A stretch of DNA of 45,109 nucleotides from Paracoccaceae bacterium. GTDB taxonomy: Bacteria > Pseudomonadota > Alphaproteobacteria > Rhodobacterales > Rhodobacteraceae. Position 1 is the stretch's first letter. Every line of letters begins with the position of its first letter. Of this stretch, positions 9,516 through 27,848 are shown piece after piece. The notes below the pieces were generated by a model that did no database searches, was not told where the DNA came from, and saw nothing but the letters and a program-made list of their open reading frames with translations. The translations under genes were made by a program, and so were the position numbers. The stretch is taken from the NCBI GenBank assembly GCA_028875855.1, contig JAGWVA010000032.1:1-45109 (forward strand), read 5' to 3'.

Positions 9516-9749
9516 ATGGCCGCCGACAAACAGAATTTGCAGGATGCTTTTCTTAACCACGTTCGCAAGACGAAGATCCCCGTGACGATCTTTCTGATCA
9601 ACGGGGTCAAACTTCAGGGTGTCATCACCTGGTTCGACAATTTCTGCGTCCTGCTGCGCCGCGACGGTCAATCCCAGCTTGTTTACAAGCATGCGATTTC
9701 CACCATCATGCCGGGCCAGCCGATCAGCCTTTACGAGGGCGAGGACTGA
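9516..9749 (+). CDS. hfq: RNA chaperone Hfq
   Basis: 77-residue Sm-like protein that forms a hexameric ring and helps small RNAs pair with mRNAs. Sm1 is seen in [20 protein letters not shown] with the distal-face region, and Sm2 in [11 protein letters not shown], which matches the canonical YKHAISTI motif. Short and ending in acidic residues (YEGED), as alphaproteobacterial Hfqs do. The frame is open upstream to 9444, but the conserved start [10 protein letters not shown] fits the ATG at 9516. A 124-bp gap separates it from ntrX, so it may have its own promoter; I could not settle on one. hflX follows after 20 bp, as in many proteobacteria. Its presence is relevant to the small RNA candidate at 26879-26954. 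Confidence 0.97.
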
Positions 9750-24935: not shown

Positions 24936-26765
24936 TCATTTCCCCATCCACCAGACGTCGGGCAGGAAGCCGATCCAGTCGCCGTAAACGGGGATCGTCT
25001 TCGGATAGTGCAGGTCGGCCTTGTAGGCGAGCCGCGAGACGTTGGAATACCACACCGGGATCACGTAGCGCCCCGCCATCAGCGCCCGGTCCAGCGCCCT
25101 GACAGCTGCCACGAAATCCTCATGCGAGTTCGACGACACGATCTTGTCGATCAGCGCATCGATCGCGGGCTGGTTCGCGCCCATGAAGTTGCGCGTCCCC
25201 GGCTCTTTCACGCCCGACGATCCCCAGTAAAGCCGCTGCTCGTTGCCCGGCGACAGCGACAGGGCAACGCGATACTGCGTCATGTCGAAGTCGTAACTCT
25301 CGGTGCGCTGCACGTATTGCGCGGAATCGACCGTCGTCACATGGGCCGCGATCCCCAGCCGCTTGAGCGCCGAGATGTAGATCTGCGACACCGCCATCAT
25401 GTCCGAGGCGCCCTGCGGCAGCAGGATCTCGAAGCTGAAGGCCTCGCCCTTCTTGTTGCGCAGCACCCCATCCGCGCCGGCCTGCCAGCCGGCCTCGGTC
25501 AGAAGATGCACCGCCGCGCGAAGGTTGGCGCGGTTTGCCTCGGTTCCGTCGGACTTCGGCAGCGCATAACCCGAGATCGCGCCGGGCAAGAGCGTGTCCT
25601 TGAACGGCTCCAGATCGGCCAGCACCTTGCCCGTGGCGGGCCCCGTCGCCATCCCCAGTTCCGAATTCGAGAAATACGAGGCGATGCGCGGCTCTGCCCC
25701 ACCGTTCAGCGTCTTGTTGATGAACTCGAAGTTGAAAGCGTCGATCAGCGCCTGCCGCACCCGCCAGTCGGCAAAGATCGCCTTGCGGGTGTTCATCACC
25801 AGCCCGTTGATGCCCGAGGGACGGTGATCGGGAATCTCGGCCTTCACGATCCTGCCCGAGGTGACGGCGGGGAAGTCGTAGGAATTGGCCCATTTCGCCG
25901 GGTTCGGCTCGCGCCATGTGTCGATCAGCCCGGCCTTGAAGGCCTGGAACATCACGTTGGCATCGGCGTAATATTCGTCGCGGATCTCGTCGAAGTTCCA
26001 GCGCCCGCGGTTGAAGGGCAGGTCCTTGCCCCACCAGTCGGGGTTCTTCCTGAAGCTGATGAAGCGGCCCGGCTCGAACTTGTCCACGACGTAAGGTCCG
26101 GAGCCGACCGGCACGTCCAGCGTCGAGGAGGCGAAGTCCTTGCCCTGCCACTGGGCCTTTTCCAGCACCGGGCGCAGCGCAAGGATCAGCGGAAGCTCCC
26201 GATCGGGCGTGTTGAAGGTAAAGCGCACCGTCTCGGGGCCGACCTGCTCGGCCTTCGACACCTGCCGCCAGGCGTTGATGTAGCGGGGGTTGCCCACCGT
26301 GCCGAGCGTCTGGAAGGACCAGATCACATCGGCCACCGTCACCGGCTGGCCATCCGAGAACTTCGCCTTGGGGTTCAGCGTGAATTCGACCCAGGACCGA
26401 TCCGGCGGCACCGTCACCGATTCGGCCAGCAGGGGGTAAAGCGTGAAGGGTTCGTCGTAACTGCGCCCCAGAAGCGTCTCGACCGTCAGCGGCGCCAGCC
26501 AATAGGGCGCGCGGCCTTTCAGGATGAAGGGATTGAGCGAATCGAAGCTGCCGACATCGCCCATGACATAAGTGCCGCCCTTGGGCGCGTCGGGATTGGC
26601 ATAGGGGAGGGACACAAAACCCTGTGGCAGGGCAGGGGCCCCATACATAGCTATGCCCGGATCGGCCCCGGCAGGCCCGCCCAAGGCGAGCCCCGCAGCC
26701 GTCAGCGCGGCCGCGCCGAGGGTGTGGGAAATTCGCCGCAGGCAGGTGGAAAAAAACTGTCTCAT
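24936..26765 (-). CDS. Periplasmic peptide/oligopeptide-type ABC transporter substrate-binding protein (orphan)
   Basis: 609 residues, a typical length for SBP_bac_5 (cluster C) binding proteins, closest in look to the YejA-like group. A signal peptide covers about residues 1-33: MRQFFSTCLRRISHTLG, then a hydrophobic core, then PAGA/DPG. Family strings include GGTYVMGDVGSFDSLNPFIL, ADVIWSFQTL, and FNTPDRELPLIL. It would deliver peptides or similar solutes to a permease in the inner membrane. No permease or ATPase gene is adjacent on either side, so the partner is elsewhere. The frame is open to 26834, but the ATG at 26765 gives a proper signal peptide. The neighbouring 309-bp gap upstream holds a candidate small RNA. 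Confidence 0.9.
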   Translation of the reverse strand: MRQFFSTCLRRISHTLGAAALTAAGLALGGPAGADPGIAMYGAPALPQGFVSLPYANPDAPKGGTYVMGDVGSFDSLNPFILKGRAPYWLAPLTVETLLGRSYDEPFTLYPLLAESVTVPPDRSWVEFTLNPKAKFSDGQPVTVADVIWSFQTLGTVGNPRYINAWRQVSKAEQVGPETVRFTFNTPDRELPLILALRPVLEKAQWQGKDFASSTLDVPVGSGPYVVDKFEPGRFISFRKNPDWWGKDLPFNRGRWNFDEIRDEYYADANVMFQAFKAGLIDTWREPNPAKWANSYDFPAVTSGRIVKAEIPDHRPSGINGLVMNTRKAIFADWRVRQALIDAFNFEFINKTLNGGAEPRIASYFSNSELGMATGPATGKVLADLEPFKDTLLPGAISGYALPKSDGTEANRANLRAAVHLLTEAGWQAGADGVLRNKKGEAFSFEILLPQGASDMMAVSQIYISALKRLGIAAHVTTVDSAQYVQRTESYDFDMTQYRVALSLSPGNEQRLYWGSSGVKEPGTRNFMGANQPAIDALIDKIVSSNSHEDFVAAVRALDRALMAGRYVIPVWYSNVSRLAYKADLHYPKTIPVYGDWIGFLPDVWWMGK

Positions 26766-26820: not shown

Positions 26821-26843
26821 GCAAGGAAATTCAAACTTCTAGC

Positions 26844-26872
26844 TTTCCTTGGGCGGCAGTTCTGCGTATAAA
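26844..26872 (+). promoter_or_regulatory. Possible promoter of the small RNA
   Basis: A TATAAA -10-like box lies at 26867-26872 in an otherwise GC-rich genome. At the standard 17-bp spacing the -35 position reads TTTCCT (26844-26849), a poor match. A transcription start near 26879 would follow. The -10 is good; the -35 is weak, so an activator or another sigma factor might be needed. Confidence 0.4.
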
Positions 26873-26878
26873 AGGCTT

Positions 26879-26954
26879 ACTGCTCGATAGGTTTCTTGCC
26901 TGTATGAAACCTGCCTCAATAACTGAACGCCGGCCTCGCGCCGGCGTTTTTTTT
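26879..26954 (+). ncRNA. Candidate small RNA with 5' hairpin and intrinsic terminator
   Basis: The 309-bp gap between the divergent binding-protein gene (minus) and bdhA (plus) contains a strong plus-strand terminator at 26926-26954 with no protein-coding gene ahead of it. Upstream of it lies a second hairpin, AGGTTTC (26889-26895) pairing with GAAACCT (26906-26912), loop 10 nt. A single-stranded linker (26913-26925) containing CTCAATAACTG joins the two. A TATAAA box at 26867-26872 would start a transcript of about 76 nt. The shape (5' stem-loop, short A/U-rich linker, terminator with a long U tail) is what Hfq-binding small RNAs look like, and hfq is present in this genome. No convincing ORF fits inside. 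I do not recognise a known family. The 5' end is an estimate. Confidence 0.6.
26926..26954 (+). terminator. Strong intrinsic terminator without an upstream protein gene
   Basis: AACGCCGG (26926-26933), a 7-nt loop, and CCGGCGTT (26941-26948) form an 8-bp stem, followed by a run of T up to 26954 (eight T in total, counting the last two stem bases). On the minus strand no T run follows the stem, so the direction is plus. This is the strongest intrinsic terminator in the window. Confidence 0.9.
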
Positions 26955-26968
26955 ACCCTCATTGTGAC

Positions 26969-27041
26969 CTGCCGTGCGGCCGGCACGGGCAGACCTTCGC
27001 CCGCAGTCGTGCTATGGAGCCCCGGGCTGGCAAGCGCCAGC
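26969..27041 (+). promoter_or_regulatory. Two hairpins in the bdhA upstream region
   Basis: Between the small RNA terminator and bdhA are CTGCC-GTGC / GCAC-GGGCAG (26969-26992, one bulged base) and the perfect GCTGGC-AAGC-GCCAGC (27026-27041). If the bdhA transcript starts before them they form its leader; no promoter was identified. No further gene is seen in this gap. Confidence 0.3.
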
Positions 27042-27074
27042 CTTCCTTGTTCACAGTCCTGCGAAGGAGACGTC

Positions 27075-27848
27075 ATGACGCTGAAAGGCAAGACCGCCAT
27101 CATCACCGGGTCCACATCGGGCATCGGCCTCGGGATCGCCCGTGCGCTGGCCGCTGCCGGGGCGAACGTGGTCCTGAACTCCTTCACCGACAGCGATTCG
27201 GATCACACGCTGGCCGAGTCGCTGGCCAGCGAACATGGCGTGACCGCGCGCTATATCCGGGCCGACATGTCCAAGGGCGAGGACTGCCGCGCCCTGATCG
27301 AGAAGGCGGGCCGCTGCGACATCCTCGTGAACAACGCGGGCATCCAGTATGTCTCGCCGATCGAGGACTTCCCGGTCGAGAAGTGGAACGCGATCCTTGC
27401 GATCAACCTCTCGTCGTCTTTCCACACCATCGCCGCCGCCGTGCCGGGGATGCGCGAGGCGGGCTGGGGCCGGATCGTCAACGTGGCCTCGGCCCATGGT
27501 CTGCGCGCCTCGCCCTTCAAGTCAGCCTATATCGCTGCCAAGCACGGGCTGGTCGGTCTGACGAAGACGGTCGCGCTGGAAACCGCGCGCGACAAGATCA
27601 CCTGCAACGCGATCTGCCCGGGCTATGTGCTGACCCCGCTGGTCGAGGCGCAGATCCCCGACCAGATGAAGGCCCACAACATGGACCGCGACACCGTCAT
27701 CCGCGAGGTCATGCTGGACCGCCAGCCGTCGAAGGAATTCGCCACGGTGGAAGAAATCGGCGGAACGGCCGCCTTCCTGTGCTCGGACGCCGCGGCGCAG
27801 ATCACCGGCACGACGATCTCGGTCGATGGCGGCTGGACGGCGATGTGA
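27075..27848 (+). CDS. bdhA: D-3-hydroxybutyrate dehydrogenase
   Basis: 257-residue short-chain dehydrogenase that interconverts D-3-hydroxybutyrate and acetoacetate with NAD, in polyhydroxybutyrate breakdown. The NAD motif is TGSTSGIGLGIA (about 11-22), then NNAG followed by IQYVSPIEDFP, and the catalytic Ser and YIAAK (Tyr and Lys near 153 and 157). The strings GIQYVSPIEDFP and NAICPGYVLTPLVE are characteristic of bacterial 3-hydroxybutyrate dehydrogenases. It starts at the ATG at 27075 with AAGGAG 7 nt before it. It is a single-gene unit, ended by a terminator 25 bp after the stop. Confidence 0.93.
   Translation: MTLKGKTAIITGSTSGIGLGIARALAAAGANVVLNSFTDSDSDHTLAESLASEHGVTARYIRADMSKGEDCRALIEKAGRCDILVNNAGIQYVSPIEDFPVEKWNAILAINLSSSFHTIAAAVPGMREAGWGRIVNVASAHGLRASPFKSAYIAAKHGLVGLTKTVALETARDKITCNAICPGYVLTPLVEAQIPDQMKAHNMDRDTVIREVMLDRQPSKEFATVEEIGGTAAFLCSDAAAQITGTTISVDGGWTAM

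Follow-up and report, generated by a model that had tools for sequence, protein, structure and literature searches.

A hyperconserved candidate small RNA gene beside bdhA that, by every sequence test made, represents a Rhodobacteraceae-wide new family of a known kind

Several small RNAs (sRNAs) of Alphaproteobacteria invite comparison with the RNA analysed here. SorX (RF02784) is, according to the available part of the source, a product of RNase E cleavage of a 3' UTR (PMC6238624); the likeness extends to the size of about 75 nt, the 7-bp hairpin, the linker and the GC-rich terminator, but SorX has a core of its own in the Rfam consensus, ACCUCCCUGUU, unlike that of the present RNA. MmgR/alphaR8 and SisA-D of Caulobacter are similar in layout, in wide conservation across Alphaproteobacteria and in a possible PHB context, whereas the CUCCCU-type core of MmgR/alphaR8 is absent from the present RNA; several alphaR8 copies are given for many genera in the accessible portion of PMC12559287. 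SorY (RF02651) is of similar size and has its own promoter, as stated in the available part of PMC6238624, but differs in sequence and in locus (1,632,645 in R. sphaeroides), and the R. sphaeroides copy of the present RNA gives no match to SorY (gathering score 111). StsR (RSs0827) appears, in the part of PMC8307010 at hand, as a 72-nt Hfq-associated sRNA of R. sphaeroides; identity with StsR was rejected, given that the complement of the probe published in the available part of PMC11354728 has, compared by eye, no counterpart in the RNA. Many sRNAs are listed for Ruegeria (PMC4809877) and Paracoccus (PMC5107571), and none of those in the accessible portions of these two sources was matched to the present RNA; for the Paracoccus denitrificans sRNAs 'Intergenic 28/60/134' (PMC5107571), no genome that fits the published coordinates was found. 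The RNA may already be listed, nameless, in an RNA-seq table. In the main texts of open-access papers (5.39 million searched), six 14-letter fragments of its sequence, taken from either strand, were found in one unrelated insect paper and nowhere else.

The copy of the RNA in R. sphaeroides 2.4.1 lies on the minus strand of chromosome 1 (1,443,996-1,444,071), flanked by genes that we read as SBP-like and bdhA-like. We infer that this genome (G051) is strain 2.4.1 because its SorX and SorY matches, at 2,598,225 and 1,632,645, adjoin the 5' ends of 2,598,224 and 1,632,642 published for that strain in the available part of PMC6238624. By its location, therefore, the RNA is not SorX, SorY, PcrZ (2,565,820), RSs1624 (1,724,505) or either of the RSP_1771 and RSP_7527 sRNAs of that paper.

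In the window, that is, the whole stretch of 45,109 nt that was analysed, positions 26879-26954 of the plus strand almost certainly comprise a real small-RNA gene with a predicted transcript of 76 nt; the assignment draws on sequence, folding, promoter pattern and homologues, and a chance origin is excluded because of the family-wide conservation described below. The gene lies in the gap between two divergent genes, the arrangement from which the earlier note had started. On one side, the gene for an ABC solute-binding protein (SBP; SBP_bac_5, PF00496) occupies 24936-26765 on the minus strand and points away from the sRNA; on the other, bdhA, encoding 3-hydroxybutyrate dehydrogenase (TIGR01963, 377.6 bits vs a cut-off of 307.05), occupies 27075-27848 on the plus strand, with LysE and DUF502 genes beyond it. 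The note's central proposal, an unannotated small RNA of about 76 nt with its own promoter and a start near 26879, is supported by the sequence comparisons, and so is the putative form of an Hfq-dependent sRNA; the same window contains hfq (9531-9713, plus strand; TIGR02383, 114.2 bits vs a cut-off of 61.7), 17 kb from the sRNA.

The stretch between the sRNA and bdhA has features of its own. The bdhA leader contains an 8-bp hairpin, GGGCTGGCAAGCGCCAGCC, followed by a weak T stretch (27024-27043, plus strand). PhaR-like palindromes (TGCN2-3GCA) are present in 25 of 119 spacers between the sRNA and bdhA, compared to a mean of 7.8 in letter shuffles, so that PhaR may act on bdhA in some of the relatives; the window's own spacer (115 nt examined) contains no such palindrome.

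The predicted transcript contains an invariant 39-nt core, CTGCTCGATAGGTTTCTTGCCTGTATGAAACCTGCCTCA (26880-26918), a first hairpin that lies within it, a linker and a terminator, all on the plus strand. Hairpin 1, found by folding, pairs AGGTTTC (26889-26895) with GAAACCT (26906-26912) in 7 bp around a 10-nt loop, TTGCCTGTAT, and is the second, 7-bp hairpin that the earlier note had reported. In the linker (26914-26924), the alignments show a conserved CCTCA and then variable letters. The intrinsic terminator (26925-26954), detected by the terminator scan and by covariation, has a 5-nt loop, a U8 tail (T run 26947-26954) and a stem of 10 bp, 7 of them G-C (26925-26934/26940-26949), rather than the 8 bp given previously. 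Its earlier ranking above all other terminators of the window is borne out by the T run and, on the plus strand, overall; a terminator-like hairpin on the minus strand (33332-33305; 12 pairs, T5) has a longer stem, the longest found in the whole-window scan. The predicted folding energy of an 80-nt stretch is -26.6 kcal/mol, compared with a mean of -15.07 for shuffled sequences (z -4.40; none of 200 shuffles as good), and in the predicted ensemble the 5' end and the loop of hairpin 1 would be unpaired.

Among 38 diverse copies, the terminator helix shows changes on both sides in 7 of the 8 counted pairs, and the whole structure has 47 double-change cells vs 11.7 in shuffles; the T run is maintained alongside the covarying terminator in divergent members. 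In the same 38 sequences, 7 of 8 pairs of hairpin 1 are invariant, so that covariation neither supports nor contradicts this hairpin because its pairs hardly vary. Hairpin 1 is accordingly predicted by folding, not proven by covariation, and the compensating changes anticipated for the hairpins were found in the terminator stem but not in hairpin 1. One alignment row, from a Neomegalonema contig (L133), ends early, without the terminator. We also considered a small protein gene (MKPAS...). Its ATG is shared by 161 of the 163 distinct copies; the frame, however, is variable in length or lacks a stop ahead of the terminator, and silent changes are almost absent from the initial codons, so that it was rejected as a peptide gene.

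Upstream of the core, base frequencies over 160 distinct loci (3 of the 163 rows, without the full upstream stretch, were left out) reveal a bipartite promoter pattern: TTTTCAAACTTTTAGCTTGGA, a 17-nt spacer, GCGTATAAA and then an A at the inferred +1. The first part, TTTTCAAACTTTTAGCTTGGA, is the family consensus of an upstream element (-52 to -32) that holds an imperfect inverted repeat, CAAnCTnnnAGnTTG, overlapping the -35; the window's copy, CAAACTTCTAGCTTTC (26832-26847, plus strand), is degenerate. The putative -35 hexamer of the window, TTTCCT (26844-26849, plus strand), is placed by the conservation of CTTGG at -37 to -33 and by the sequence, and a 17-nt spacer follows it; the family consensus is TTGGAC, mostly with a C before it. 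The -10 hexamer, TATAAA (26867-26872, plus strand), is the TATAAA box noticed earlier, with each base of TATAA conserved in 73-97% of the 160 loci. The probable start, A26879, is 99% conserved across these loci, and therefore the conserved transcript would begin exactly at the core. The promoter of the sRNA is not among the listings of the sigma-70 pattern in the whole-window scan; its assignment comes from conservation over the 160 loci, not from that pattern.

In one genus, a 16-nt consensus, CAAACTTTTAGCTTGG, has one mismatch-free site in each of 12 of the 13 genomes, which sits 48-49 nt ahead of the core in 11 of these 12 and is interrupted by the contig end in the twelfth. A regulon sharing the promoter element was considered and rejected: just three further sites, at 2 mismatches, turned up in the 13 genomes of this genus. 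In two related genomes (L326, L327), a near-copy, CAAACTGTTAACTTGG, is located near the start of a polysaccharide export-like gene.

The RNA is conserved throughout the family. BLAST with 131 bases against 295 whole family genomes yields matches in 289 at E <= 2e-14; of the remaining six, five give E values of 0.05 to 0.6 and one gives no match. The family-wide covariance search that the earlier note had called for is strongly positive: a model built from 24 copies has matches in all 196 of the 196 genomes of the order sample, and in 40 family genomes, mostly those weak or absent in BLAST, it finds 34 at >= 67.9 bits, the six without a match being 71-92% complete. The exact 39-mer is present in 279 of the 295 family genomes, which amounts to 278 of 294 genera, in a single copy in 278 genomes and in two copies in one; the 16 genomes without it comprise six that are incomplete and ten with a diverged copy. 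In one genus, inferred to be Paracoccus, 124 of 125 genomes have the RNA. A scan of named genomes found at least 118 stretches with the RNA, and among the matches listed (80) are Ruegeria, Paracoccus, Roseobacter, Celeribacter, Thioclava and Neomegalonema as well as uncultured Rhodobacteraceae and Alphaproteobacteria.

Because loci from L119 onward were selected by the exact core string, the conservation counts are drawn from other samples. Among 78 distinct loci not selected in this way (the best matches plus 30 of the weakest family matches), 75 carry the exact core, with a mean pairwise identity of 0.986. The longest word common to >= 95% of loci is 39 nt for the sRNA vs 6 nt for bdhA (58) and SBP (70), and the pairwise identity of the core (98.6%) compares with 50% for third codon positions (30 equal-length bdhA genes) and 36% for the promoter spacer. 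The constraint starts at the inferred +1 and stops in the linker.

Two copies stand apart. G181 is the only genome of the 295 with two exact cores (G181:C64:3-41), one of them at a contig end, and the second core may be an assembly duplicate. In the copy of genome G227 (L111), ATGGCGCTAAGG replaces CTGCTCGATAGG, and CACTGCTCGAG lies about 30 nt upstream, which may reflect an insertion into the 5' end.

Beyond the family, the core is absent from the samples searched. In the phylum sample of 299 genomes, the last 30 nt of the core occur within 3 mismatches in 15 genomes, all family members, and in none of the 284 outside the family. In the class sample, in which weak matches were filtered more strictly, 29 of 289 genomes match the covariance model, four family members at >100 bits and the other 25 at <= 33.2 bits, the latter read as bare terminators; absence outside the family is a statement about these two samples. 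None of 26 outside-family loci comes closer than 17 mismatches to the 39-nt core. One such locus (L060; G658:C20:8918-9012, minus strand) has a hairpin, then GCCTCCCTG and a terminator, and resembles alphaR8 or SorX more than the present RNA. Among plasmid records, four Paracoccus replicons carry the RNA, and one Cupriavidus record matches the linker and terminator only. A phage or viral origin was rejected: seven phage matches span the terminator only, and the exact 22-nt hairpin string is found in none of the viral contigs.

At most loci the RNA keeps the same company. Among the 199 loci with the exact core (163 distinct rows, some genomes being repeated) are 181 with room for a gene on either side. 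The SBP gene lies upstream at 171 of the 181, both neighbors are in place at 144, and neither is at 10; absence here refers to the examined stretch rather than to the genome, and one lineage contributes several of the ten. The usual gene order looks like common descent. In two neighbor-less loci (L099 and L101, from genomes of 2.1 and 2.5 Mb), the RNA lies between DUF502 and mfd-like genes, named from reading translations; given that the window has LysE and DUF502 beyond bdhA, it seems that these small genomes have lost the usual neighbors but retained the RNA. At two more of these loci, L203 and the Neomegalonema contig (L133), a gene read from its translation as a CBS-domain gene adjoins the sRNA, away from the usual neighbors; this may be an early move or the ancestral place.

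The earlier note had named bdhA and the ABC binding protein as first guesses for targets, and this suggestion is not supported, because the predicted pairing with them does not exceed that with randomly chosen segments from these loci. In the first pairing test, the mean duplex energy for 128 bdhA starts was -25.4 vs -22.1 (sd 1.4; 20 letter shuffles, lowest -25.5) and that for 174 SBP starts, some of which overlapped the sRNA itself, was -25.6 vs -22.6 (sd 1.2; no shuffle of 20 as low). A non-overlapping repeat gave medians of -24.9 kcal/mol for bdhA starts (n=60; 1 of 60 shuffles as low) and -25.4 kcal/mol for SBP starts (n=60; 0 of 60), values for the start regions of the neighbors that lie some 2 to 2.6 sd below those for shuffled sRNA. 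For random segments, however, the predicted pairing is no weaker (medians -26.0 and -25.95; 6 and 3 of 60 shuffles as low), and the signal is therefore not specific to the neighbors.

The pattern TGAGGCAGG, sought within 14 nt before an ATG, has between 1 and 20 sites per genome in 16 members of the family (at least 5 in 13 of them) and between 1 and 22 in nine genomes from outside it, compared with 0 to 4 sites for the reversed control pattern; the loop pattern is rare (7 of 25 genomes). Among 20 such pattern places that were read, about four of the ATGs could be gene starts. The only site that recurs between genera, in four of them, was rejected: it is antisense within a malic enzyme-like gene, on the strand that cannot pair with the sRNA. 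Thus, the target searches, comprising genome patterns and neighbor pairing, found no conserved target. An own-genome BLAST of both strands (E <= 10) found no long complement of the core in any of the organism's own RNAs, only two chance-level matches to core pieces (19-20 nt, 89-95% identity, E 5.3 and 0.82).

We consider it probable that 26879-26954 forms a gene in its own right, whose product is a regulatory sRNA of the Hfq-dependent kind that acts in trans by base pairing. Transcription would run from A26879, under a sigma-70-like promoter of its own with the upstream element, the 17-nt spacer and TATAAA, to the end of the intrinsic terminator at 26954. Base pairing would proceed through three unpaired, almost invariant stretches, namely, the 5' end, ACUGCUCGAU, the loop of hairpin 1, UUGCCUGUAU, and the linker with the 3' strand of the hairpin, (GAAACCU)GCCUCA; UGCCU occurs in the loop as well as in the linker. 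The sequence complementary to the linker, UGAGGCAGG, looks similar to a ribosome-binding site, and hence the blocking of translation starts would be the plainest guess as to the mode of action. Given that the letters of the stem are equally fixed, the hairpin can perhaps open such that its strands, too, are read by partners; the fixed stem points either to a hairpin that opens for pairing or to a core that serves, as a whole, to bind a conserved partner. The gene, its conservation, terminator and promoter pattern and its independence of both neighbors are direct results of sequence comparison. Transcription, Hfq binding, base pairing and targets are predictions. A base-pairing regulator of the Hfq type would be in keeping with the size and the promoter, with the U tail of the terminator, and with an exposed 5' end and loop and a C-rich linker.

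Among alternatives, the main one is a housekeeping-like RNA whose 40-nt core would form, as a whole, one rigid binding site, either of a conserved protein or of some invariant RNA (rRNA, tRNA or another sRNA), instead of a series of mRNA seeds. A near-fixed block of 39 nt that includes a stem is stricter than usual among base-pairing sRNAs, so that binding of a protein or of rRNA is conceivable; the stem, the loop and the unpaired flanks on either side hardly vary, beyond the needs of folding or short seeds, and a conserved mRNA target was not found. Nevertheless, we regard this role as unlikely, with the own-genome BLAST lacking a long complement to the core (shorter pairings are possible) and with a size, promoter and U-tailed terminator like those of ordinary Hfq sRNAs. 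The same near-fixed sequence with its inverted repeat, usually in a single copy per genome, could also be that of an element acting as DNA, for recombination, segregation or protein binding, rather than an RNA gene; that the promoter pattern stops exactly at the start of the core, and that a covarying terminator and a T run follow it in divergent members, makes such an element highly improbable.

Membership in a known family, as a distant relative of MmgR/alphaR8 (suhB, RF00519) or SorX, is already largely refuted, and we rate it as very unlikely. At the gathering threshold, Rfam (Rfam 15) has no match in the window or in the R. sphaeroides copy. The best sub-threshold match is SorX (23.5 bits, E 0.00056, vs a gathering score of 46.6), and suhB reaches 17.5 bits in the window vs a gathering score of 41; in relatives, the two rise to at most 24.3 and 23.3 bits. 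These matches, weak as they are, are full-length, the layout of hairpin, C-rich linker and terminator is alike, and bdhA as a neighbor recalls the link of MmgR with PHB. Unrelated families, however, give similar sub-threshold scores, the CUCCCU consensus motif of both families is missing here, and SorX occupies another locus in R. sphaeroides; the weak SorX and suhB/MmgR matches rest on layout and terminator. Hardly any more credible is a role as leader or attenuator of bdhA, an origin as a by-product of its 5' UTR, or an antisense function against the SBP gene. The RNA is on the same strand as bdhA, about 120 nt ahead of it, and both genes accompany it at most loci with room on both sides, but a full terminator stands ahead of bdhA, the start regions of bdhA and SBP show no special pairing, and the RNA is kept at the 10 loci where neither gene is beside it and is therefore not a leader. 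The best reading thus remains a putative new family of trans-acting, base-pairing sRNAs of the Hfq type.

By every sequence test made, this is a genuine, hyperconserved sRNA gene with family-wide presence; it would represent a new family of a known kind and a case of an sRNA whose stem is as fixed as its unpaired stretches. More tentatively, and with somewhat less than even confidence, we propose a Rhodobacteraceae-wide regulator, kept even in small genomes where the usual neighbors no longer flank it, in which the 40-nt 5' half, with its stem, is frozen across nearly 300 genera as every segment of it is read by partners. If true, this RNA would be among the most sequence-constrained bacterial sRNAs, and either its core regulon would be large and conserved or its partner, whether RNA or protein, would be invariant; Rfam 15 has no family for it. 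Rhodobacteraceae are abundant aquatic bacteria that include well-studied laboratory species. Being strongly constrained and present in 278 of the 294 sampled genera, the sRNA is likely to be part of the core physiology of this family.
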